Of a stretch of DNA of 21,511 nt, positions 6,700 to 21,053 are shown piece after piece (within the stretch, counting starts at the first letter, position 1; every line of letters starts with the position of its first letter). Below the pieces are notes generated by a model. It was not told the origin of the DNA. It worked only from the letters and a program-made list of their open reading frames with translations, and ran no database searches. This DNA comes from a virus. The stretch is taken from positions 1-21,511 of IMG/VR virus record IMGVR_UViG_3300010403_000062; one strand, 5' to 3'. The translations under genes were made by a program, and so were the position numbers.

Positions 6700-6701
6700 A
6701 A

Positions 6702-6772
6702 GCCGGATTCGTCCAGCGGTAGGATGTCCGGTCTGTACCCGGAAGACGGGAGTTCAAATCTCTCATTCGGCT
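6702..6772 (+). tRNA. tRNA, anticodon UGU (Thr) by cloverleaf geometry
   Basis: A complete cloverleaf can be drawn: acceptor GCCGGAT/ATTCGGC, D-arm GTCC-AGCGGTA-GGAT, anticodon stem TCCGG/CCGGA with loop TCTGTAC, four-base variable loop, and T-arm GGGAG-TTCAAAT-CTCTC, discriminator T. The anticodon at 6734-6736 is TGT with A37. Position 33, almost always T, is C here, and the discriminator is T rather than the usual A. The CCA end is not encoded in full. Confidence 0.85.
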
Positions 6773-6781
6773 GGCATGATT

Positions 6782-6865
6782 GTAGTCGTGGCGTGAATGG
6801 CAGACGCGGCAGACTGTAAATCTGCTGTCCAAATGGGCATGGTGGTTCAAGTCCATCCGGCTACA
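6782..6865 (+). tRNA. tRNA-Tyr (GUA)
   Basis: A class II tRNA: acceptor GTAGTCG/CGGCTAC with one T-G pair, D-arm GCG/CGC, anticodon arm GCAGA-CTGTAAA-TCTGC giving anticodon GTA, a long variable arm with TCC/GGG stem as expected for bacterial tRNA-Tyr, T-arm GGTGG-TTCAAGT-CCATC and discriminator A. It follows the first tRNA by nine bases, and CCA is not encoded. Confidence 0.92.
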
Positions 6866-6878
6866 CGGAATTATAAAA

Positions 6879-8411: not shown

Positions 8412-9080
8412 TTGAAGCGCCCACGGGTTCGGGGCCGGAGTGCGGCCATCAAACTCACGCAGGAGGAATCGCTGGCATGGGTGTATCAGGATGTCTACCA
8501 GATCGCCCCACGGCTGACCAAACACGTCCTGGGAATCCTGTGCGACATGGAGAAACAGCAGGAAAAGCCGAAGGACGAGCATCACGCGAAACTCCTGATG
8601 CAGCAATCGCGGGAGCGGGCAGCGGCGAATCAAATGGTGATGGAGATTTCGGACTTGATTTTGCCAGTCGTTTTCAAGCTTCCCGTGAAAGAGCGGGCCA
8701 ACTGGCGGGATTACAGTCTGGACGAGAAGAAGAAGATGGTGGCCGCGAGGCTTTTGAAATTGGGTCTTGCTACCGAGAAGAAAGACAGCGATGATGAATC
8801 TCCCAAGCACGAAGGAGATACAGAAGCTCCTGTCGAGCAAGCACCCGCAAGCGGTGGACGAACTGATGGAACTCCTGGAGGGGATCGCGGAGGACGAGCG
8901 GCACTCGGCGTGGGAGCGGTACGAGCCGATGCCGAGCCAGTTGAAGTTCCACAAAAGCCTAGCGAGGGTGAGGCTGTACTGTGGCGGGAACCGGGCGGGG
9001 AAGACTACGGCGGGAATGATCGAAGCCATCTGGTACATGATGGGCCGCCACCCCTACAGGACAGTTTTATCACCGAATAG
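8412..9080 (+). CDS. terS: Probable terminase small subunit
   Basis: Located directly upstream of terL and of suitable size, with a basic N-terminus (KRPRVRGRSAAIKL) followed by helical, charged segments (ESLAWVYQDVYQIAPRLTKH, later EKKKMVAARLLKLGL); terminase small subunits recognise phage DNA and regulate the large subunit. Assignment rests mainly on position. TTG 8412 is the first usual start codon, but the frame is open back to 8253 with a Ser/Thr/Pro-rich, protein-like sequence (STDSTSTEPASDTSSSTEVI) and an AAGGA site at 8251-8255, so the real start may be a rare codon such as ATT 8268. The frame runs to 9080, 290 bases into terL; that tail is Gly/Pro/Glu-rich with a different codon bias. 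Confidence 0.6.
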   Translation: MKRPRVRGRSAAIKLTQEESLAWVYQDVYQIAPRLTKHVLGILCDMEKQQEKPKDEHHAKLLMQQSRERAAANQMVMEISDLILPVVFKLPVKERANWRDYSLDEKKKMVAARLLKLGLATEKKDSDDESPKHEGDTEAPVEQAPASGGRTDGTPGGDRGGRAALGVGAVRADAEPVEVPQKPSEGEAVLWREPGGEDYGGNDRSHLVHDGPPPLQDSFITE

Positions 9081-10206
9081 CGGCTGGATTGTCGCCCTCG
9101 ACAACGAGGTGTTGGCTGACGTTATTCTTCCTAAGCTGTTTGAGTATCTTCCTGAAGACCTGATTAAAAGTTTCAACAAAGTCAAGGGTGTTCTTGAACT
9201 CAAGAATGGCAGCCTGTGTAAATTCAAGTCCTGTGATTCGGGAGCCGAGAAATTCCAGTCGGCGGAACGCCGCTGGATATGGTTTGATGAGGAACCGCCA
9301 CAGGAAGTCTGGAATGAATGTCTAATCCGAGTGGGGGCACGCTACCCGCTCGATGTCTGGATGACCATGACACCCCTCAAGGGCATGGATTGGAGCTATG
9401 ATGAAATCGAACAGAAGCAAAAGCCCGGAGAGATTGAAGTATTTGGTGCCAGCTTTGTTGACAATTACCATATTCTGCCTTCTGAGCGTCAGCGCATCAT
9501 TGAAAAGTATGAACACACAGATGAAGCAAATGCGCGGCTCCATGGGCACTATTTCCACAAAAGTGGACTCATTTACAAGGGTCTTAGACCGGAGCTACAT
9601 CTGGTGGACCCCTTCCCCATACCTGAGCATTGGCCCTTCATTCGGATCATCGACCCCCATCCAAGAAAACCGAGTGCCGCCATATGGGTTGCCGTGTCTC
9701 CCGGGAACCATCTATACGTTACCGACGAACTTAACGATCCAGAGGAAATCCTTCTCAGTGAATTTGCCCAACGAGTTAAGGAAATCGACGGGAAGCGTTA
9801 CATTGTACGGTCCCTTATTGATCCAGCAGCTCGACAGGGAACAGCCCAAACCGGAATGTCAACCCAGGAGTATCTCTCTCAACCCGAGATAGGGCTGCAT
9901 TGCGAGTTTGCCAATAACAATGTCACGTTTGGATATGATGCAGTTCGGAAACGGCTTCAGGGGCCGGACGGGCCGACCATCCATATCTTCAATAACTGCT
10001 GGAAGACATGGAAGCAGCTGACCCATTTAGTGTATGAAGAATGGCGTCATCGGGGGGCCAACAGGGACGTTCGGGAGGTTCAAAGAAAAGTCAATGATGA
10101 TTTAGCCGACTGCGTCCGATATGCTTGCTCAGAGCAATTTGAGTATTCCGATCCACGGATGCCTCCTCCTGATTATGTTCCAAGAAGTAGCACTACTGGA
10201 TATTAA
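8791..10206 (+). CDS. terL: Terminase large subunit (packaging ATPase-nuclease)
   Basis: The 471-residue protein has Walker A GGNRAGKTT at 65-73, Walker B as IWFDEEPP at 163-170, a coupling motif MTMTPLKG at 191-198, and an RNase H-like nuclease domain with acidic residues expected near D288 (IRIIDPH), D344 (SLIDPAARQG) and D437/D440 (DDLADCVRY). It drives DNA translocation into the procapsid through the portal and cuts concatemers. Start is ATG 8791 or 8794, with a weak AGAAG site; a frame to 8767 exists. By hand count, third codon positions are about 85% G/C up to roughly 9060 and about half afterwards, a break inside one gene. The TAA stop directly abuts the following endonuclease gene. 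Confidence 0.95.
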   Translation: MMNLPSTKEIQKLLSSKHPQAVDELMELLEGIAEDERHSAWERYEPMPSQLKFHKSLARVRLYCGGNRAGKTTAGMIEAIWYMMGRHPYRTVLSPNSGWIVALDNEVLADVILPKLFEYLPEDLIKSFNKVKGVLELKNGSLCKFKSCDSGAEKFQSAERRWIWFDEEPPQEVWNECLIRVGARYPLDVWMTMTPLKGMDWSYDEIEQKQKPGEIEVFGASFVDNYHILPSERQRIIEKYEHTDEANARLHGHYFHKSGLIYKGLRPELHLVDPFPIPEHWPFIRIIDPHPRKPSAAIWVAVSPGNHLYVTDELNDPEEILLSEFAQRVKEIDGKRYIVRSLIDPAARQGTAQTGMSTQEYLSQPEIGLHCEFANNNVTFGYDAVRKRLQGPDGPTIHIFNNCWKTWKQLTHLVYEEWRHRGANRDVREVQRKVNDDLADCVRYACSEQFEYSDPRMPPPDYVPRSSTTGY

Positions 10207-10701
10207 ATGATGACAGACCGCGAACGGAAACTAAAGGCTGCGTCGGATAGGGCTTACTATCTAAGAAATAGAGATAGGATTAAGGCGTCAGTAAAGGCGT
10301 ATAAGGAAAATAACAAGGAGAAGGTCGCTGAGGCGGTTCGCAGGTGGCAGGCGGACCATAAGGAACAAAGGTATAGATATAATGCTGAGTATCAAAGAAT
10401 GAATCCGGAAAAAAGATTCAATCATCTCTTGATGTATCATTACGGTCTTCGACGCGAAGAGTACGATGAAATGCTTAAGCGTCAGTCCGGATTGTGTGCT
10501 ATTTGCTTCGGCGGCCCCGGTCCAGGTCGCAACAGGTTAGTCGTAGATCACAGGCATGGCACTGATCGCGCCACCCGCAGGGAGCGCGTCAGGGAGTTGC
10601 TGTGCCATAGGTGTAACGCCGCAATCGGCCTTGCGCTAGAGAACCAATCCACACTCGGAAGGATGATAGAGTATCTTGCGAAGCATTCCCCGAAGCAATG
10701 A
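10207..10701 (+). CDS. Endonuclease VII-like HNH endonuclease (free-standing)
   Basis: The 164-residue protein has the recombination endonuclease VII zinc/HNH core: C97/C100 (CAIC), DHRH at 114-117 and CHRCNAAIG at 133-141, with N137 at the usual catalytic position. Residues 1-70 form a basic helical arm that probably contacts DNA. T4 endonuclease VII resolves branched DNA, but small relatives placed between phage structural genes usually behave as homing endonucleases. It starts on the base after the terL stop with only a weak ribosome binding site, which suggests insertion of a mobile gene. A second family member lies at 19242. Confidence 0.9.
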   Translation: MMTDRERKLKAASDRAYYLRNRDRIKASVKAYKENNKEKVAEAVRRWQADHKEQRYRYNAEYQRMNPEKRFNHLLMYHYGLRREEYDEMLKRQSGLCAICFGGPGPGRNRLVVDHRHGTDRATRRERVRELLCHRCNAAIGLALENQSTLGRMIEYLAKHSPKQ

Positions 10702-10914: not shown

Positions 10915-12690
10915 ATGGAACCACTTATTCAATCTCCCTCCGCTTCGGTCCCTCCGATTGATTCATTCAATATCAATTCCGGAGCAGGCAATCCCATTGA
11001 AGCCAAGATTCTTGAATTAGTTCGTTCCGACATTACATCAACCGCCAAAGAGCGGTCTGAAACCAAGCGTAAGGTGGCTCTGCGGCGGGCCATCTACAAT
11101 TCCCAGCAGCCCAATCCCACCTATCGCGGTCGATCCAATGTCCGCGTGCCCTTCCCGTATGTCACTGTTCAATCCATGGTGCCTCGCTACATGAATTATA
11201 CGTTCTCCGGCACTGATGTTCTCAAGTCCTACCCTCGCGGCCATTCCGCCGACTGGGGAAAGGCCCGCAATGCCCAGTATCTCATCAATTTCCAGCTAAT
11301 GTTTGAAGCGGATTTCTTTATGAACGCCATGAACTTCTATATCGCGCTTTCCCGCGACGGATTGGCGATACAGAAGATCAAGTGGGACGCGGAAATTGGC
11401 TCTCCGGTTATCTATCAAATTCAGGGAGAGGATTTCTGTATGGACAAGTCCATGTCGTTCATCAACCGACAGACGAAATGGGCTGGACATCTTGTTGGCA
11501 AGACACGCCAGGATTTGATTGACGGCCTATCGGACCCCAGTAAGGGATATAATCCTGAAACCGTCAATGAGATTCTCAAGGGTGAGCCAGATACGACCCT
11601 TCCCGACGGAACCAGCGTGCCGAAGAGTCGCGGCATCTACAAGATTTGGGAATGGTGGGGCATCTGCGACCTTGGCAACGGGCCGGAGCGGTGCATTATC
11701 AATCTGGTGGATGGCAAGGACAAGATTCTTTCCTATGTGAAGTCTCCCTACGGAAACATTCTTCCGTTCGTCGCCCTGAATGATGTTGACGATCCCTTTC
11801 ACTTCTCCGACGGCAAAAGCGAACTTGATGTCATGGAGCCGCTGTATGAGATGGCGAATTCCGTGTGGAATCAGCGACTCGATAACGTCACGCAAGGCAT
11901 TAATGGTCACTTTATCGTTAAAAAGGGGTCCGGGTTAGACCTGAATCGCCTGACCAGTACACCTTGGGGCGTAACGCTCGTTAATCAGCCCGGGGACATC
12001 ACGAAACTTGAGACGCCGAACGTCACACAGAATGCCTATGTAGAAGTGCGAGAGATTATTGAGGCCATGAAGGATTCCAGTGGCCTGACGGACATGATGC
12101 GCGGCGCTGTCCAGTCCGGCGCGGGTACGGCCACGGAATCCACACAGATTGCTCAGGGGGCCGCCATGCGTCCCGGTCTCAAGCAGATGAAGGTGGCCCA
12201 TCAGTACGTCAAGCGCGTTGGTGAACTCTTCCTTGCCATGGATCAGATGTTCATGTCCACCGAAAAAGCCATCGCCGTGACCGGGGACCGTAACGCTCCC
12301 GCCTCTATTGCTCCGAATGACATCATCGGCCAGTACGAGATGATGCCCTCCAACTTCCGGCTGGTGACGGACATCAATGGCCGCATTGCTCAGTTGAGCA
12401 GCATGCTCAATATGGCCGGAAACAACCTCGGGAAAGAAATTGTCGCCATCAAAATCTGGAAAGAGATGTGCGGCCTTGCCAATATCGACATCAGCGAAGA
12501 GGAATGGACGATGGCGCTGCAATTGGCAACAGGGCAGCAGGCCAAACAGATGGAAATGCAGACTTATGATGGAGCCTTGGGCGGACCTGCCAATAAACCC
12601 ACTGGACCCATTGGGGTTCCGCGTGTCGCCAACACGCCGTCCGGGCCGCCGCAGGGAGCCTCACGGCCAGCCAATCAGGAGGTTAAGTAA
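10915..12690 (+). CDS. Portal protein
   Basis: 591 residues, placed between terL and the scaffold and capsid genes, the standard portal position. Early segments VPFPYVTVQSMVPRYMNYTF and KSYPRGHSADWGKARNAQY and the central NILPFVALNDVDDPFHFSDG followed by LYEMANSVWNQRLDNV match what is usual for podovirus-like portals, whose twelve subunits form the DNA channel and dock terminase. The C-terminus (from about residue 560) is a Pro/Gly/Gln-rich tail. AAGGA lies close before the ATG and the gene abuts its upstream neighbour; the final A of its TAA is the first base of the next ATG. Identification is by pattern and context rather than a catalytic motif. Confidence 0.88.
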   Translation: MEPLIQSPSASVPPIDSFNINSGAGNPIEAKILELVRSDITSTAKERSETKRKVALRRAIYNSQQPNPTYRGRSNVRVPFPYVTVQSMVPRYMNYTFSGTDVLKSYPRGHSADWGKARNAQYLINFQLMFEADFFMNAMNFYIALSRDGLAIQKIKWDAEIGSPVIYQIQGEDFCMDKSMSFINRQTKWAGHLVGKTRQDLIDGLSDPSKGYNPETVNEILKGEPDTTLPDGTSVPKSRGIYKIWEWWGICDLGNGPERCIINLVDGKDKILSYVKSPYGNILPFVALNDVDDPFHFSDGKSELDVMEPLYEMANSVWNQRLDNVTQGINGHFIVKKGSGLDLNRLTSTPWGVTLVNQPGDITKLETPNVTQNAYVEVREIIEAMKDSSGLTDMMRGAVQSGAGTATESTQIAQGAAMRPGLKQMKVAHQYVKRVGELFLAMDQMFMSTEKAIAVTGDRNAPASIAPNDIIGQYEMMPSNFRLVTDINGRIAQLSSMLNMAGNNLGKEIVAIKIWKEMCGLANIDISEEEWTMALQLATGQQAKQMEMQTYDGALGGPANKPTGPIGVPRVANTPSGPPQGASRPANQEVK

Positions 12691-13021: not shown

Positions 13022-13744
13022 ATGCCAGTCGAAGCGGCTCCCGTGAGCAATGTGGTAATTCCGGTCACTTCAGGCACGCCCCCGGCGGCGGCCAGTCAGG
13101 AACCCGCAGGCGGAACAGGACAACCCTCAGTAGGTACTCAGTTTAGCATTCCGGATACATTCAAGGATAAGGGCTGGAAGGGACCCGATGATGTCTTTAA
13201 GTCATACGGCGAACTCGAAAAGACCTATAGCCAAATCCAGAATCAACTGAACGAGTATGCAGACTATTTCAGGAGCATTGCCCCGATTGCGGGTGACATC
13301 GACGCCTTTGTGGCGGAAAAGATGGCCGCGCTAACCGGCAAGGCTCCGGACAACAAATCGGGTAAGGGAATTGATCCCGCACTCGAACAGCGATTGCTCG
13401 CCAATGAGCGTGCCGTTCAGGAACAGAATGAGCGCACCATCATGACGGCGAAATCGAATGCTTCCGATGAGTTCCAGCGAGCGCATCCGGAACATGAGCA
13501 GTACCGTCAGGAAATCATGGACATTCTGAAGTCCGGCATCGTTCAGTCGAGCGATCCCGCGAACGTCAGGGCGAACGTGACAGCCTATGAGTCTGCGCTG
13601 TTCATTGCCAAGCAGCGTGCCGCCGATAAGGCCGAACGGGCCAAGGCGGCTGCGGGCGTTCATGGGGCATCAGGTGATCTTCGCGGCGGCGGGAATGTGG
13701 ATATGTCCAATCTCGACTCCGTTCGGGACAGCCTGAAAACCTAA
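13022..13744 (+). CDS. Probable scaffolding protein
   Basis: 240 residues directly before the capsid gene, the usual scaffold location. The N-terminus is an Ala/Pro/Gly/Ser-rich disordered tail; residues 40-90 contain TFKDKGWKGPDDVFKSYGEL, a motif common at the start of phage scaffolds; the middle (QRLLANERAVQEQNERTI) is a predicted coiled coil; and the C-terminus is basic and helical (AKQRAADKAERAKAAAG). Scaffolds guide capsid assembly and leave or are cleaved before packaging. It starts two bases after the previous gene with GAGAGGA nine to ten bases upstream. Confidence 0.82.
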   Translation: MPVEAAPVSNVVIPVTSGTPPAAASQEPAGGTGQPSVGTQFSIPDTFKDKGWKGPDDVFKSYGELEKTYSQIQNQLNEYADYFRSIAPIAGDIDAFVAEKMAALTGKAPDNKSGKGIDPALEQRLLANERAVQEQNERTIMTAKSNASDEFQRAHPEHEQYRQEIMDILKSGIVQSSDPANVRANVTAYESALFIAKQRAADKAERAKAAAGVHGASGDLRGGGNVDMSNLDSVRDSLKT

Positions 13745-13779: not shown

Positions 13780-14769
13780 GTGGCTATTACCATTACGACA
13801 ACCAACCAGTACAGCGATACGCTCCGGACCTTCTACGAGATGAAATTTTTGTCCGGACTGACGACTAATCTGGTGTTCTACAACTTTGCGACGGAATATC
13901 CGATTGCGAAGGGCTTTGGTCCCGTGGTGCAGTTTACCCGGTACACGCCGAGCGTTTCGACGCCTGCGGACCGCCTGCTCTCGGAAGGTACGCCTCCGTC
14001 CAGCATTCAGCTTTCAATTGAGAAGGTGAATGCGACTGCTCTTCAGTATGGCAACTTCGTTGACATCTCTGATTGGCTGTATGCCAACTATATGTCCGGC
14101 TATTCGGAGCAGGTCGAGCAGACGCTCGAAGTCCTGTCTCTGGAAGCGCAGGATGTCATTGACCAGATCGTGCGGAACGGCCTTGGGGCCTCTTCGGGCG
14201 CGAATTCCACGTTCGCCGGGAGCGCGACTTCGGTGGCGACACTGAATCCGACCAGCGACCTTATCTCTGCGGATCAGGTCCGCAAGGTCGTGCGGACGCT
14301 GAAGCGTCGGTTTGTTCCGTTCTTCGATGGCAGCAACTACATCGGGATCATCTCGCCGGGTCAGTCCTTTGACCTTCAGGGCGAGACCGGCGTGGGTAGC
14401 TGGATCGACGTGAACAAGTATACCGGCACCACGAAGGCTGAGAAGGGCGAAATCGGCAAGCTGTATTCGGTGCGATTCGTTGAATCTCAGAACCTCACGG
14501 TTGCGGGTGGCGTCGGCGTTGGTGCCTCGGGCACGGTGCAGAGCTACTTCTTCGGGAAGGATGCCCTTGGCGTGGTGAACGTCAAGGATGTGACGAGCGG
14601 GAACCGCAAGTCCATGAAGCACATTGAGTTGTTCATCAAGGAGCCGGGTTCTGCGGGAACGGCCGATCCTCTGAACCAGCATGGCACGATTGGTTACAAG
14701 TTTAACATCGCGGCTGTGCGACTTCACAATGCGCGTGTCCAGTTGTTCGAGTCGGGCGAAGGCGCGTAA
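13780..14769 (+). CDS. Major capsid protein, N4-gp56 family
   Basis: 329 residues starting at GTG 13780 with GGGAG eight bases upstream. The N-terminal arm (TTTNQYSDTLRTFYEMKFLS), the conserved PVVQFTRYTPSV with the following LLSEGTPPS, and the central long helix around EQTLEVLSLEAQDVIDQIVR fit the N4-gp56 branch of HK97-fold capsid proteins. The C-terminal half carries FVPFFDGSNYIGIISPG and a late GTIGYKFNIAAVRLHNAR segment typical of the family. It forms the icosahedral shell. Codon use is strongly G/C-ending and regular, as expected for a highly expressed gene. Confidence 0.92.
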   Translation: MAITITTTNQYSDTLRTFYEMKFLSGLTTNLVFYNFATEYPIAKGFGPVVQFTRYTPSVSTPADRLLSEGTPPSSIQLSIEKVNATALQYGNFVDISDWLYANYMSGYSEQVEQTLEVLSLEAQDVIDQIVRNGLGASSGANSTFAGSATSVATLNPTSDLISADQVRKVVRTLKRRFVPFFDGSNYIGIISPGQSFDLQGETGVGSWIDVNKYTGTTKAEKGEIGKLYSVRFVESQNLTVAGGVGVGASGTVQSYFFGKDALGVVNVKDVTSGNRKSMKHIELFIKEPGSAGTADPLNQHGTIGYKFNIAAVRLHNARVQLFESGEGA

Positions 14770-14778
14770 GGAGAAACC

Positions 14779-15351
14779 ATGAAAAAGATTCTACTCTCCC
14801 TTGCGCTGATTCTGGTTGCATCTGGCGGCAATACCGCTCAGGTCAACCCGATCCGCAATAACATTCGCGGTGTGGCGTACGGCACCGGTGTTGGCGCGGC
14901 CCCTGCGGCGGTGGGCAAGCCTGATTCCAATGGAGTCATGCAGCAGCCCGTGAAGCTGTTTGAAACCCTGGCGTGGTCGGTGACGCCGACCATGGTGACG
15001 GGTAGCAACACGATTTCCGGTGGTTCGCAGTCGAACACATCGTGGTTCGATACGACCGCCTATACCAGCCTGCTCTTGCAGACTGAATTCCATGGCGGGT
15101 CCGCGACCGTTGTGGTGGAAACGTGCTTCACATGGACACAGACCGGTATTGAGCCTACGCCGTCGGCGGCGGGCACGTCCGGGAACGTCCATACCTATGT
15201 GGTTGTGGCGACCGTCATTGGATCGAACACCGTAACTTCCGTGACCAACCTTGGAAAGATCACGCGCATTCGCATCACGGCCAATCAGGCCGACGAGATG
15301 AAGAATTGTGCGACGGTTTCCCTCGGCTGCGCTCTGCGGACCTCCCTGTAA
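14779..15351 (+). CDS. Probable exported protein with signal peptide, 190 aa
   Basis: ATG at 14779 follows AAGGAG five bases upstream and lies nine bases after the capsid gene. The first 20 residues (MKKILLSLALILVASGGNTA) form a textbook Sec signal peptide with a likely cleavage before Q21. The mature part is Thr/Ser/Val/Gly-rich and beta-type, with cysteines late (CFTWTQTG, then NCATVSLGC) that could form disulfides outside the cytoplasm. By position one would expect a head decoration or fibre protein, but a signal peptide is unusual for that. No family is recognised. It is the first of five consecutive genes with such N-termini. Confidence 0.78.
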   Translation: MKKILLSLALILVASGGNTAQVNPIRNNIRGVAYGTGVGAAPAAVGKPDSNGVMQQPVKLFETLAWSVTPTMVTGSNTISGGSQSNTSWFDTTAYTSLLLQTEFHGGSATVVVETCFTWTQTGIEPTPSAAGTSGNVHTYVVVATVIGSNTVTSVTNLGKITRIRITANQADEMKNCATVSLGCALRTSL

Positions 15352-15450
15352 ATGAAGTATACCGTCAATCACGATTCAAACTCTGTGGTTGGCGGTAGGT
15401 ATCTTTCTATGTCATGGCTGCGTAATTCAACACTGAGGACAAACACACAC

Positions 15451-17157
15451 ATGAGGACGATGATTGCGGGCCTGTTGGCCCTGATGATTACAGGCTCGGC
15501 GCTCGCCGTGCAGCCCAAGCAGACCGTTTCACCGGGCCAGACATTGACCGCGAATACGGGCGGGGCCAGCCATACTGTCATTTGGGGCCAGATTCGTCCC
15601 TCCACCACCTATGGCGGATGGGAAATCGTTCCATTGAGCGCCACACTGGATGGGTCCGGCAATATGGCGCTGATTGTGAAAATGGCGGCGGGAAGTGCCG
15701 GATCGCCTGCGAGTTTTTCTCAGGTGGTGTCTGGTTCTGCCTTCATCGGAGCCAACGGTGCCACAGGTCCGTTTGTGACCATTGCCAATACGATTTCCCA
15801 GGGTGACATCACAGGTGCTGGCAAGGCCGTCAACTTCAGCGTGACCAATGGTGGCACCTACGTCAACGCTCCGGGCAACGTGCTGGTACTGGGGAATGGT
15901 GGACAGTTCCCTGTGGTGGGCGGGACGTACTTCTACGGTGCGGTCGGCTCTGCCGGTCCAGCGGTGACGATGCAGGGCCATGCGCCGGGGAGTGCGACCC
16001 AGTGGGCAATCAAGGTGCCCGGTGCGTCAACAGTCGCCGCAGACCCCATTGTGGCTATTGGCGGGTCAAACGTGGCGGGAGGTACCATCAAGTACGCAAC
16101 GGTCGCCCCCATGGGAGCTTCGGCTCAGAACTTTAATATGGGAACCAATCAAGGATTCTTGACAACGAGTGGACTTGCATTCTACAACGTCACGGGGGCG
16201 ACGACGAGTGCGAACAACTGGATGTCAGGTTCGGCCACACCATTCATTGATAATCTGTATTCGACCCCAGCAACCCCCTTAGCGGCCCCCTTCTCCATTC
16301 CGCTGGGCCGCTACAACTCTGCGGCGACGTACTACGCGGGCGCGGTGTTCACCATGACCCCCACCGGCACCAACGGGGATATGGCGCTGATCCTGACGGG
16401 CAACTGGCAGACGGCGGATGCTGCACTCGGAGCGACGACGAACGCGCTGGCCGTCCGCATGGTGCAGCCCACGGATGGGGTGGGGGCGGTGTATCGGGCT
16501 GGATTGAATGCTGCTACTGCCACAGCGACGATCTTGGTGGTAGGGGGAACACGGGGGGACACGACCGGAAACGCAACTCCCGTCGGTATGATTAACTTGG
16601 GTGCTCTTAGCGCACCATCGACTGTCATTAATACTAATTCAGCATTTCAGACAGTTGCTGCACCTTTTCTCAGAACCAATGGACCGCAGGCGTCACCCAA
16701 CTATGCTTCTCAGACTGGTGCAACCCAGTGGCAATCCGCGTCCATGCCAACTAATCAGATGACTGCCACCGGCTCAGGCGGTGTCGCCGCCGACGTTCGC
16801 AGCGTCGGCGCGGCGGGGTTGGGGACCGTCACCGCCTATGACGTGGGTTCGACGCAGGCGCTGGGCGTCACGCGCACGGTTGACTCGACCATCGCTGGCG
16901 GGAATGAAATGTGGATCGGGCTGGACCCCTCGGCGGCAGAGGCGGGGGTGGTCTACATCTCGTTCACGTCCTGCAACGATGCCAAGCTGAACGGCTTCCC
17001 CATCACGCACATCGGGGCCACGCTGGCGGCGGGGGCGAACGCCAACTTCATCGGGCCGTACCACCGGGGCAACCTGAACCTGAAGGTGGGCGACAAGTGG
17101 TATCTCTACGCCGCCTCCACGCTGGCGGTGCGAGAACACATCACGCAGACGCGGTGA
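15451..17157 (+). CDS. Large beta-rich surface or exported protein with signal peptide, 568 aa
   Basis: The frame opens at 15352, but ATG 15451 places a signal peptide MRTMIAGLLALMITGSALA at the N-terminus (predicted cut before V20), so I prefer it; its GAGG site is distant. The mature protein is Gly/Ala/Thr-rich with many repeated short strands and two similar GATQWQS- and SATQWAI-type segments, as in phage fibres or surface adhesins. The C-terminal part (from about 16790) is markedly richer in G/C and includes YISFTSCNDAKLNGFPITHI and NLNLKVGDKWYLYAAS. That tail resembles small beta-sandwich head fibres or decoration domains. No enzyme motif is visible. Confidence 0.72.
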   Translation: MRTMIAGLLALMITGSALAVQPKQTVSPGQTLTANTGGASHTVIWGQIRPSTTYGGWEIVPLSATLDGSGNMALIVKMAAGSAGSPASFSQVVSGSAFIGANGATGPFVTIANTISQGDITGAGKAVNFSVTNGGTYVNAPGNVLVLGNGGQFPVVGGTYFYGAVGSAGPAVTMQGHAPGSATQWAIKVPGASTVAADPIVAIGGSNVAGGTIKYATVAPMGASAQNFNMGTNQGFLTTSGLAFYNVTGATTSANNWMSGSATPFIDNLYSTPATPLAAPFSIPLGRYNSAATYYAGAVFTMTPTGTNGDMALILTGNWQTADAALGATTNALAVRMVQPTDGVGAVYRAGLNAATATATILVVGGTRGDTTGNATPVGMINLGALSAPSTVINTNSAFQTVAAPFLRTNGPQASPNYASQTGATQWQSASMPTNQMTATGSGGVAADVRSVGAAGLGTVTAYDVGSTQALGVTRTVDSTIAGGNEMWIGLDPSAAEAGVVYISFTSCNDAKLNGFPITHIGATLAAGANANFIGPYHRGNLNLKVGDKWYLYAASTLAVREHITQTR

Positions 17158-17591
17158 TGAAGAACTTCGTCGCGCTTCTCTTCCTGCTGGCGGGTCCAGC
17201 CTCCGCGTGGAACCCCGCGATCCCGTTTACCGCCACGGGGACGGCGGCGGCGGGGAGCGCGGTCACCGTCACGATCCCGGCGGGCGGGGCGAACACCTAC
17301 AGCCTCATCACCCGGATCGAAGTCACCATGTACGCGACGGCAGCGATCACAGCCTCCGCGACACCGCTGCGCGTGACCACCACCAACATGAGCAACATGA
17401 GTTTCGTGTTCGCCAATGTGGCGGCGGCAGCGGCGGCCGTTCAGCAGAAACCAAACGATGCCTCGTTCAGTCCCGGTGTCATGAGCCTGACGCCCAATAC
17501 GGCGGTCACCATCGTTTGCCCCGCCACGGCGAACGTGATCTGGAATGTGTGCGTCTGGTATACGAACGTACCGATGCCGGTGACGTGGTGA
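17157..17591 (+). CDS. Exported or surface protein with signal peptide, 144 aa
   Basis: The ATG shares a base with the upstream stop (TGATG), so translation is coupled. A signal peptide MKNFVALLFLLAGPASA is followed by a Thr/Ala/Val-rich beta-type mature part (TATGTAAAGSAVTVTIPAGG, later NTAVTIVCPATANVIWNVCV) with two late cysteines. The size and beta content recall capsid decoration or receptor-binding domains, but no family is recognised. The gene is very rich in G/C-ending codons, like its two neighbours. Confidence 0.72.
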   Translation: MKNFVALLFLLAGPASAWNPAIPFTATGTAAAGSAVTVTIPAGGANTYSLITRIEVTMYATAAITASATPLRVTTTNMSNMSFVFANVAAAAAAVQQKPNDASFSPGVMSLTPNTAVTIVCPATANVIWNVCVWYTNVPMPVTW

Positions 17592-17875
17592 TGACCCGCT
17601 GCATCGCGTTGTCGCTGCTGATCGCCGTGAGCGGCTATGCGCAAGCGGACCTGACCCTGCCGGGCGCTCCGGTCATGGTGACGGTGCCTGCGGAATCCTC
17701 GGTGATCGAGCAGGGGGACATGATGATCCTCTCGGACCCGCCCCAGTACGTCCTGACCGCGCAGCATCAGGCGCAGCGGCAGACGGCGGCGTTTTGGGGC
17801 GGCACGATCTTCGGGGTGGTCATCTCGCTGGCGCTGGTCAGCTTCATCGGGACCAAGATGGTGGAGGGGCGGTAA
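17591..17875 (+). CDS. Small protein with signal peptide and C-terminal membrane anchor, 94 aa
   Basis: Coupled to the previous gene by a TGATG overlap. Residues 1-19 (MTRCIALSLLIAVSGYAQA) look like a cleavable signal peptide, residues 20-65 are a periplasmic-type stretch, and residues 68-87 (AFWGGTIFGVVISLALVSFI) are a transmembrane segment followed by a short basic tail. This single-pass, C-terminally anchored topology resembles unimolecular spanins in outline, but no lipobox is present. It may alternatively anchor the neighbouring exported proteins. Confidence 0.7.
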   Translation: MTRCIALSLLIAVSGYAQADLTLPGAPVMVTVPAESSVIEQGDMMILSDPPQYVLTAQHQAQRQTAAFWGGTIFGVVISLALVSFIGTKMVEGR

Positions 17876-18657
17876 TGCGTAAGCTGCTGTTCGCCGCCTC
17901 CCTGCTGGGGTGCATGGCGTTTGGGCATGGGGGTGGAACACCCTGTGTTGTCGGTAAGGGAGCATTCACCTCTGCCGTTCTGGCCCCCGGCCCTGTGGTC
18001 TGGTATCGCTGTAACGAGTTGACCGGGGCCTCCATGGCTGATTCTTCTGGCAACGCCCGAAACGGTAGCTACTCCGGTAGCCCGACGCTTGGATCAACCG
18101 GACTAACGCGAGATTGGGGAAACTGCGTCAATCCCAACACGTCCATTGTCACCGCCAGTGGAAAGTTTGGCTCAGTGGGTACGACAAGCTGGATCAACCT
18201 CGACAAGTTCACCCTGATTGTGTTCGTCCTGAGCGGAGCCACCAACGGGACGAACGCCTTCATCTTCGGGTCTATGGGGTCCGCACTTGATTCGGGGTTC
18301 GGCGTGTACCGTGCCGCCAACCAGACCTACTTCTCGGCTCTGCTGTATACATCGGCTGGTCTGGAAAACTTCAACGCGTCCACGTCCATCACCAATGGCG
18401 CAGCGCATATGCTCACCTACCTGTTCAACGGAACCAAGGTGGAGTTGCACACCGATACAGCGGTGGACCTTGCGGCCACGTCAACATCGTCCACAATCAT
18501 CACCTACTCCACGTCCACGGTACAGGTGGGGGCGACGGGCGGGCCAGCGTTTGACCTTCCGTGGAACTACAACGTCTCCGATTGCATCCTGTACTCCTAC
18601 ACCATCACGGGAGCGCAGGAGACAGCGATCTATAATGCTTCTGTGGGTTTACCGTAA
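17875..18657 (+). CDS. LamG/concanavalin-like lectin-fold protein with signal peptide, 260 aa
   Basis: The ATG shares a base with the previous TAA and has GGAGG seven bases upstream. MRKLLFAASLLGC at the start is a signal peptide with a lipobox-like LLGC (C13), so it could be a lipoprotein. The mature part has the LamG_3-like pattern: VVWYRCNELTGASMADSSGN, NARNGSYSGSPTLGSTGL, a WINLDKFTLIVFVLSG strand and AAHMLTYLFNGTKVELHTD, ending with a strand typical of jelly-roll folds. Such domains bind glycans or surface proteins. In phages they occur on fibres or decoration proteins; export would be a different use. Confidence 0.75.
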   Translation: MRKLLFAASLLGCMAFGHGGGTPCVVGKGAFTSAVLAPGPVVWYRCNELTGASMADSSGNARNGSYSGSPTLGSTGLTRDWGNCVNPNTSIVTASGKFGSVGTTSWINLDKFTLIVFVLSGATNGTNAFIFGSMGSALDSGFGVYRAANQTYFSALLYTSAGLENFNASTSITNGAAHMLTYLFNGTKVELHTDTAVDLAATSTSSTIITYSTSTVQVGATGGPAFDLPWNYNVSDCILYSYTITGAQETAIYNASVGLP

Positions 18658-18722
18658 TGGTGAATCCATTGAAGTTGATCGGACTATATTTCAAATTCAA
18701 CAAACAAGTGGAGGATAGCAAC

Positions 18723-18986
18723 ATGGATATTAAGTCATTTATGAAGTCGGGATGGAAGACCTCGGAGGGATGGCTGCACGCTTTCGTGGTGGTCGCTGGA
18801 TTGGCAGGGCAGTATTTCGGAACCAACCCGTATGTACAGATCGCAGGAACGATTGCTGCGGCGATTAGCGCGTCCAACTACGCGATTACTCGCGCCCAGG
18901 TCAAGAATGCTGCGGTGGCCGGACTGGCCGCTGCGGTGGTTGCCGGGGCTGGATCGGTGAAGGCCGACGCGGAGAAGGCCAAGTAA
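18723..18986 (+). CDS. Holin-like membrane protein, 87 aa
   Basis: A longer frame starts at 18657, but ATG 18723 follows GGAGG with an eight-base spacer. The protein opens with MDIKSFMKSGWKTSEGWLHA, a start I associate with small phage holin-like proteins, and has two hydrophobic segments (HAFVVVAGLAGQYFG and YVQIAGTIAAAISASNYAI), then an Ala/Val-rich stretch and a charged tail KADAEKAK. Two or three membrane spans, the size and its placement before a Rz-like protein suggest a holin that opens the inner membrane at lysis. No endolysin is visible in the window, so the assignment is tentative. Confidence 0.6.
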   Translation: MDIKSFMKSGWKTSEGWLHAFVVVAGLAGQYFGTNPYVQIAGTIAAAISASNYAITRAQVKNAAVAGLAAAVVAGAGSVKADAEKAK

Positions 18987-18987
18987 C

Positions 18988-19245
18988 ATGACGCTCAAGG
19001 CTCTCGTTCGACATGAGAATGGCGATCTGAATAAGATTGCTATTGCACTCATCACGGCAGCCATGATTGGTATTGGTTCATTCTGGACCGTTGGATCGGT
19101 GAAAGCCTATACCACTGAAACAAAAGTTACAGACATGAATGATAATATCAAGAGAATTTTGGATATTCTTGAGCATCGCCAGAATAGGGATGCCAAGAAA
19201 GAGCATGATAGCCGTAACGCTAATACACCAAAGGTGGTTGGATGA
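18988..19245 (+). CDS. Rz-like (i-spanin) or membrane-anchored coiled-coil protein, 85 aa
   Basis: Begins one base after the holin-like gene. A basic N-terminus is followed by one transmembrane segment at residues 17-38 (IAIALITAAMIGIGSFWTVG) and a coiled-coil-like region (DMNDNIKRILDILEHRQNRD). This is the layout of inner-membrane spanin subunits, which link the inner and outer membranes at lysis, although the periplasmic part is short. No Rz1 partner is evident in another frame. Its stop overlaps the HNH gene start (ATGA). Confidence 0.55.
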   Translation: MTLKALVRHENGDLNKIAIALITAAMIGIGSFWTVGSVKAYTTETKVTDMNDNIKRILDILEHRQNRDAKKEHDSRNANTPKVVG

Positions 19246-19622
19246 TGGCTACCGGAAGTTACGAGAACACTAAAAGGTGGATGGAGAAGTATCCGGAGAG
19301 GTCCAAGGAATCCAAGAAAAGGTGGCTCCTGAAAAATAAAGAAAAAATGAAAAGCTATATTAGGGATTGGAAACTGAAGAAGAGATATGGAATATCAAAC
19401 GAGCAGTTCCTTTCTATTCTCGCGGAGCAAGACGGCAGGTGCCGTATATGTAACAGAAATAAATACGAACTTGGCTCCACTCATCTGGTGGTGGACCACA
19501 ACCATCTCACGGGAAAGGTTCGAGGTATTCTCTGCTCTAAGTGTAACGTTGCCATTGGATTGCTAGGAGATGATTCTCCGACAGCATATCGGGCATCCAA
19601 ATATCTGGAGTTAACAAATTGA
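19242..19622 (+). CDS. Endonuclease VII-like HNH endonuclease (second copy of the family)
   Basis: 126 residues with C67/C70 (CRIC), DHNH at 85-88 and CSKCNVAIG at 98-106, the endonuclease VII core with the conserved Asn. The basic helical N-terminus (YENTKRWMEKYPERSKESKK) parallels that of the 10207 gene, but sequence similarity is limited to the core. It starts within the stop of the Rz-like gene and its own TGA overlaps the next TTG start, so it appears embedded in the lysis/tail segment, most probably as a mobile homing-type gene. Confidence 0.9.
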   Translation: MMATGSYENTKRWMEKYPERSKESKKRWLLKNKEKMKSYIRDWKLKKRYGISNEQFLSILAEQDGRCRICNRNKYELGSTHLVVDHNHLTGKVRGILCSKCNVAIGLLGDDSPTAYRASKYLELTN

Positions 19623-20057: not shown

Positions 20058-21053
20058 TTGTCTTTAGTTACATTCCAAGATATTTACACAGAGGTTCTCA
20101 CTCTGACGATGGCAGCCCAATCCCCGACCACATTGCAGACAACCAGGGCCAAGGCGTGGACGAATCAGGCCCTCAACAGGGTGGTTCGGGACATTGATTA
20201 TCCATTCCTGCGGAGACAGACTTCATTTGTCACGGTGGCCGGTCAGCGCCTTTATGTTCCTGAGCCGGAAGCTATGGAAATCCTTAATATTCGTATTCCA
20301 TCAGAGAATCGCTACTTGAACAAGATTTCCAATCAGAAGATTGACAGGCTGCGCCCTGAATACTTCACAGATACCAATACAGCCCTCCCGAGCAATTGTT
20401 ATTACGAGGATAGCATTGGTGTGGCAACCGCCATTGCATCGGCGGGAGCCGTCGTGTATGCGGCCTCGGATGCCACAGAGACAGCGGCCACCACGATCAC
20501 GATTGAGGGATATTCTGGATCGGAAATTCAGCGGGAAGTCCTGACGCTTGCCGCCGCTGCCACGCCAACCGCCACCGGAACTAAGTCATTCACAGAGATT
20601 CTGTCTGTCTCCAAAAGCGGAGCGACAGTTGGAATTGTCACCCTGAAGCAGACCAATTCATCTGGCACAACACTGGCAACATTGGGTCCTTATCGCCGCA
20701 CGCGGCGCTATATCCGTATCGGTCTGGAAAATATCCCGGGACAGGTCTATACCTGCTACATGCGCTTCATTCCATGGATGGCTGATCTGGTGAATGATTC
20801 CGATGTGCCGCGTATTCCTGAGCCTGATAATAATGCCATCTTGAATGCCGCCATGTTGATTGCAGCGGAATATAATTCTGATGCCGATTTGCTGGCTTCC
20901 CGTGAGCGCAAGTATGCCGATGCGATTGCGAAGATTCGTGAGCGCGTGAAAGATGGCGGCGATGAAGTGCCGAGATTCAGGTTTGATTCCGGCATGGATA
21001 CCGGATTGGGATGGACGTTTGAAGATTTCATGCGATCCGTGTACTTCGGTTAA
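20058..21053 (+). CDS. Head-tail (neck) adaptor-like protein, 331 aa
   Basis: Begins at TTG 20058, two bases after the previous gene. The N-terminal part (FQDIYTEVLTLTMAAQSPTT, later ALNRVVRDIDYPFLRRQTSF and TVAGQRLYVPEPEAMEIL) matches the helical start and beta strand of phage adaptor proteins that sit below the portal. A Thr/Ser-rich insert (TTITIEGYSGSEIQREVLTL, TSFTE-like and GIVTLKQTNSSG) looks like an immunoglobulin-like beta domain. The C-terminus (NAAMLIAAEYNSDADLLASR) is helical again. It probably connects the portal with the tail; the exact family is uncertain. Confidence 0.72.
   Translation: MSLVTFQDIYTEVLTLTMAAQSPTTLQTTRAKAWTNQALNRVVRDIDYPFLRRQTSFVTVAGQRLYVPEPEAMEILNIRIPSENRYLNKISNQKIDRLRPEYFTDTNTALPSNCYYEDSIGVATAIASAGAVVYAASDATETAATTITIEGYSGSEIQREVLTLAAAATPTATGTKSFTEILSVSKSGATVGIVTLKQTNSSGTTLATLGPYRRTRRYIRIGLENIPGQVYTCYMRFIPWMADLVNDSDVPRIPEPDNNAILNAAMLIAAEYNSDADLLASRERKYADAIAKIRERVKDGGDEVPRFRFDSGMDTGLGWTFEDFMRSVYFG

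Follow-up and report, generated by a model that had tools for sequence, protein, structure and literature searches.

The virion proteins of tailed phages are regarded as purely cytoplasmic, and the phage proteins known to exclude competitors are usually encoded singly and often expressed early, in contrast to the five late genes described here. The closest described systems are small phage proteins that pass the inner membrane to act in the envelope: Llp of phage T5, an exported lipoprotein that shuts the receptor and stops adsorption to infected cells as well as to lysed fragments (PMC9586334), and Spackle of phage T4, which the same article cites as an exported superinfection-exclusion protein (PMC9586334). 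The block analyzed here resembles Llp and Spackle by virtue of its predicted export signals, and the likeness would be one of purpose. Unlike the block, which consists of five late genes of a structural operon, both Llp and Spackle are encoded by single genes and lack a virion-type domain; further, Llp is a lipoprotein, whereas the lipobox of the only candidate in the block (g5) is doubtful.

Genomic context of the five-gene block

The window, i.e. the whole stretch of DNA analyzed, is a virus record of 21,511 nucleotides (21.5 kb) from a short-tailed phage. It belongs to the SU10/N4-gp56-type podoviruses, with capsid (TIGR04387), portal (SU10_portal) and adaptor (SU10_adaptor) families all matched (Table 1), and with a capsid identity of ~23-33% at best (to Bacillus Pagevirus and to gut and spring phages) it stands far from annotated phages. 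Unlike the relatives of this type that were seen, the window carries a run of signal-peptide genes between the capsid and adaptor genes. These five consecutive genes, g1 to g5 (14779-18657, plus strand), follow nearly gapless 3' of the capsid gene, which forms the 5' border of the block, while the adaptor gene is the 3' border of the variable slot.

Table 1. Features of the window (aa, amino acids; SP, predicted signal peptide; slash, predicted cleavage site).
Feature	Position	Strand	Length	Details
tRNA genes Thr (tgt) and Tyr (gta)	6701-6866			adjacent
Terminase	about 8791-10206
Endonuclease VII/HNH-like gene	10207-10701			assigned by eye
SU10-type portal	10915-12690			PF23899, E 1.9e-24
Scaffold-like gene	13022-13744
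N4-gp56 family major capsid protein	13780-14769	+		TIGR04387 (NCBIfam), E 6.7e-46; phrog_1357, E 2.4e-48
g1	14779-15351	+	190 aa	SP about 14779-14838; highest-scoring cleavage behind aa 16
g2	15451-17157	+	568 aa	SP 15451-15507 (ALA/V)
g3	17157-17591	+	144 aa	SP 17157-17207 (ASA/W); mature part 17208-17588
g4	17591-17875	+	94 aa	SP 17591-17647 (AQA/D); C-terminal anchor about 17792-17854
g5	17875-18657	+	260 aa	weaker SP about 17875-17925, possible site after Gly17; LamG-like domain about 18196-18615
Holin-like small membrane protein	18657-18986	+		likely start 18723
Endonuclease VII/HNH-like gene	19242-19622			PF02945, E 2.7e-20
SU10-type adaptor protein	20058-21053	+		PF24175 (Pfam), E 8e-11

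The stop codon of one gene overlaps the start codon of the following one at g2-g3 (TGATG), g3-g4, g4-g5 and between g5 and its 3' neighbor, and these overlaps tie g2 to g5 together; g1 is preceded by a good ribosome-binding site (aaggag). For g2 the mechanically called start at 15352 was dropped in favor of ~15451, as the signal peptide is visible only when the gene starts at ATG 15451 or 15409 and is concealed in the longer frame. The base composition of g3-g4 (17157-17875; GC 0.64-0.66, GC3 0.84-0.92) lies above that of the other genes (GC 0.43-0.61), which suggests a recent acquisition of this pair and a mosaic origin.

Two small membrane proteins are encoded directly 3' of the block (18657-19245). 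The first, with hydrophobic segments, lies outside the signal-peptide block and gave no match in family searches; the second is weakly holin-similar (phrog_1296, E 0.006). Within the window we saw no recognizable endolysin and neither an integrase nor any other sign of a temperate phage, and PADLOC returned no match to defense genes. Two endonuclease VII/HNH-like genes of the free-standing homing type occur in the structural region, one adjoining the terminase gene and the other inside the capsid-adaptor slot, and the two tRNA genes sit between the early and terminase regions.

Predicted signal peptides of the five genes

N-termini were evaluated with a rule-based scorer that looks for a basic tip, an uncharged hydrophobic core and small residues at -3/-1. 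At a threshold of ≥6.2, calibrated on three regions of E. coli K-12, it passed 28/28 of the proteins that we classed as secreted, 0/65 of those classed as cytoplasmic and 8/27 of those classed as membrane proteins. The original prediction of five consecutive genes with Sec-like signal peptides was borne out, with scores of 8.8 (g1), 9.5 (g2), 9.7 (g3), 9.9 (g4) and 7.4 (g5), and all five N-termini present a basic tip, a short hydrophobic core and a small-residue site. None of the terminase, portal, scaffold, capsid and adaptor genes of the window passed; outside g1-g5, a small transmembrane protein at 18988 did (6.6). When residues 2-40 were shuffled, the observed score was reached in 1.2% (g1), 0.05% (g2), 0.6% (g3), 0% (g4) and 9.4% (g5) of cases, and g5 is therefore the weak member of the run.

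Sec/SPI signal peptides combine a basic n-region, an uncharged h-region of 7-15 residues and small residues at -3/-1. This pattern is complete in g2, g3 and g4, while g1 and g5 have weaker sites. Thus, the prediction of Ala-type cleavage sites held for g2, g3 and g4, each with a canonical AxA, and not for g1 and g5, whose candidate sites are weaker Gly sites.

In 165 loci of capsid-family relatives, for which gene calls were crude and of which some end shortly after the capsid gene, only 12 of the 889 genes in the 7 kb that follow the capsid gene passed the scorer, at most one per locus, which makes a run of five exceptional. The overall pass rate was 2.9% of 5006 crude gene calls, and the sole other run of at least three passing genes among them, a run of four in L224, is a lysis cassette and was rejected as a parallel to the block. 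This background rate is conservative because it includes errors of the scorer, among them a collagen-like fibre in L196 and, in L083, two head-operon proteins of FADG type, all of which clearly lack a signal peptide. Cumulatively, the five signal peptides, taken as a block, exceed chance.

Three of the capsid relatives encode one predicted exported protein each, of ≤1324 aa (L010 16111-16902, L120 16003-17154, L133 15299-19273). These proteins lie downstream of tail and lysis-type genes, two of them in Clostridia-type genomes, and are likely cargo.

Mature parts of g1, g2 and g4

The mature part of g1 is beta-rich as judged by eye and has 3 Cys, and that of g2 is rich in Gly, Ala, Ser and Thr, with 7% charged residues. 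No homologue of either was found in PHROGs, Pfam, the phages and viral contigs searched or the relative loci, and hhalign comparisons of both with g3 and with the first half of its relatives, which would have revealed g1 or g2 as a distant copy, were negative. A membrane anchor at the C-terminus of one gene, also foreseen in the original prediction, is present in g4, where a short outside domain is followed by the transmembrane segment and a basic tail; g4 had no homologue in the relative loci searched. We found no relative among solved structures, and for g1-g5 no match to lysis families (endolysin, spanin, SAR) in PHROGs, Pfam or NCBIfam; weak NCBIfam matches (MFS, hydrolase, LptA) were judged to be due to chance.

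g3 carries a domain of virion operons

The mature part of g3 shares 38% identity with the C-terminal half of a Caulobacter phage BL47 protein, gp135 (L173), and the homology begins at aa 19 of g3, directly behind the predicted cleavage at 17. Using the alignment of g3 with BL47 gp135 as query, we retrieved 43 viral loci. Identity over the mature g3 domain is 30-51% in family members such as those of BL47 and L204; g3 carries the family core motifs PATxxVIW and VTTTN, with an identity of 30-45% to the family. Most relatives are ~250 aa long, with the domain forming the second half behind an extra N-terminal domain, and in a tail completion protein (L184) and a GH16-like protein (L176) it is the terminal domain. 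The family had zero matches to Pfam or PHROGs families, and no member was found as a virion component in the phiCbK proteome (PMC3556154).

As to genomic position, the g3-family gene stands directly behind a tail-fibre-like gene in ~23 of the 43 loci, and in L204 (7252-8004) it is placed between the capsid gene and the head-tail adaptor Ad3, i.e. in the slot that holds the block in the window. The tail-fibre-like gene followed by the g3-family gene constitutes a recurrent unnamed pair (L204 6581-8004 and ~22 other loci). In L183, a small Cys-rich protein with a strong predicted signal peptide (1047-1394) is encoded close downstream of the g3-family gene.

g3 shares with its family (BL47 gp135; the L204 gene) the mature domain and, in L204, the capsid-adaptor slot, beside fibre-like genes. 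It departs from the family habit at its N-terminus: in 42 of the 43 loci the gene was readable, and 0/42 of these relatives passed the scorer, so that no relative combining a g3-type domain with a signal peptide was found among them, whereas in g3 a predicted signal peptide replaces the N-terminal domain. Because the relatives are devoid of signal peptides, placed in virion operons and ~250 aa long, we read g3, from sequence comparison, as a virion-operon domain in which the N-terminal half has been exchanged for a predicted signal peptide. Mature g3 contains two Cys, one family-typical and the other, C132, unique, its place being taken by Thr in most relatives.

g5 resembles phage LamG domains

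The LamG-like fold ascribed to one gene was found in g5, in the form of a Laminin_G_3-like (PF13385) domain that falls below the Pfam cut-off (E 7e-4, 20.2 bits vs 27.6) yet is clearly similar to phage LamG domains. In its N-terminal third it is 36-50% identical to the LamG/ConA-like tail/fibre domains of Burkholderia phage FLC9 gp310 and of L218-L224, to which it is homologous. The relatives are larger phage proteins of tail/fibre type without a signal peptide, in which the domain is internal or terminal, while g5 is a stand-alone version behind a signal-like tip, and the region matching phage proteins starts ~10 residues past the signal peptide. Mature g5 has four Cys; at two of these positions, C46 and C237, the relatives mostly carry hydrophobic residues.

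A lipobox, [LVI][ASTVI][GAS]C, ends the h-region, with Cys usually at residue 15 or later. The lipobox-like LLGC of the last gene does exist, at residues 10-13 of g5, but it has Leu at -2 and further hydrophobic residues behind it and does not fit the SPII pattern. Since Cys13 occurs very early and within the hydrophobic core, the lipobox is poor, and the reading of g5 as a lipoprotein, being weak and doubtful, was set aside.

Discussion

We consider Sec export the likely and simplest reading of five consecutive signals, and actual translocation of the proteins quite probable. This part of the original proposal, that phage-coded proteins are sent to the host envelope, stands on a signal-peptide block beyond chance and on mature domains of g3 and g5 that match phage proteins lacking signal peptides; for the same reason at least two signal peptides (g3 and g5) appear to have been grafted onto virion-type domains. 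Even numbers of Cys occur in the mature parts of both (2 in g3, 4 in g5), and since C132, C46 and C237 are Cys at positions where relatives mostly differ, the pattern fits disulfides gained outside the cytoplasm and folding in an oxidizing compartment, a sign that is weak on its own. Counting against export are the occurrence of the block on a single contig, the failure to find a relative that unites domain and signal peptide and would show export to be conserved, the chance-level shuffling result of g5 (9.4%) and the sub-optimal cleavage sites of g1 and g5.

The latter sites invite the explanation that the N-termini are hydrophobic tips that stay uncleaved on virion proteins synthesized in the cytoplasm, the signal-peptide match being partly a by-product of their brief hydrophobic starts. 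The scorer does pass the collagen-like fibre, the two FADG-type proteins and some E. coli membrane proteins, and such tips are conceivable above all for g1 and g5. However, a basic tip and short core in five consecutive genes, with a perfect AxA in three of them, the lack of such a tip in g3 relatives and the start of the domain directly behind it make this explanation unlikely. The main rival, and a more novel one, is that g1-g5 are real parts of the virion, such as head fibres or decoration. They would fold or acquire disulfides on their way through the periplasm and be added to the particles at lysis. The block fills the capsid-adaptor slot where g3 relatives and fibre-like genes sit, and virion-type mature domains, Cys pairs and the late operon position all agree with this idea; nevertheless, relatives produce this domain without exporting it, the membrane-anchored g4 is ill-suited as a virion part, and the open literature searched yielded no precedent in tailed phages, which does not prove absence. 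We regard virion parts of this kind as unlikely. The more specific version, a split assembly line in which appendages are routed through Sec, folded with disulfides in the periplasm and joined to the particle outside the cytoplasm, is in our opinion distinctly unlikely, and we know of none in tailed phages.

Single exported proteins downstream of tail and lysis-type genes in the prophage-type relatives L010, L120 and L133, together with the high GC and GC3 of g3-g4 that hint at recent acquisition, would suit cargo of benefit to the host, i.e. secreted surface proteins with effects on host attachment, biofilm or susceptibility to phages but without specific receptor masking. Yet the block is embedded in the structural operon and not at an operon end or in an immunity region, and no mark of a temperate phage was seen in the window, which renders cargo quite improbable. 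As to lysis, the third purpose originally envisaged, envelope proteins aiding the neighboring holin-like genes could be imagined from the two small membrane proteins directly 3', one of them weakly holin-like; but no match to endolysin, spanin or SAR families was found in g1-g5, neither LamG nor virion-type domains count as lysis domains, and the lysis-like genes follow directly downstream of the block. A lysis role for g1-g5 is thus unsupported and we hold it to be very improbable.

We tentatively favor a late-operon cassette of five Sec-exported proteins, at least two of them retargeted virion-type domains, which may serve receptor masking. According to this proposal, g1-g5 would be made late, together with the capsid proteins, and would cross the inner membrane via the host Sec system, with the signal likely removed from g1-g4 and less surely from g5. 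The mature proteins would then remain in or on the envelope, a location that seems probable from their predicted features, and g4 would be held in the inner membrane by its C-terminal anchor. Late expression with the capsid, an adhesin-like LamG domain, virion-type domains and one membrane-anchored member would fit occupancy of the cell surface or receptor. Free copies of the virion-type binding domains, with those of g3 and the LamG-like type as putative receptor binders, may mask the receptor or surface sugars used by the phage itself, such that neither infected cells nor envelope fragments left by lysis would trap progeny or admit rivals. By analogy with Llp, receptor masking as the purpose of export is possible but doubtful.

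If export of the block is correct, phages would be able to convert parts of their own particle into envelope-acting proteins through the gain of signal peptides, and the converted parts may represent either receptor-masking agents or appendages assembled outside the cytoplasm.
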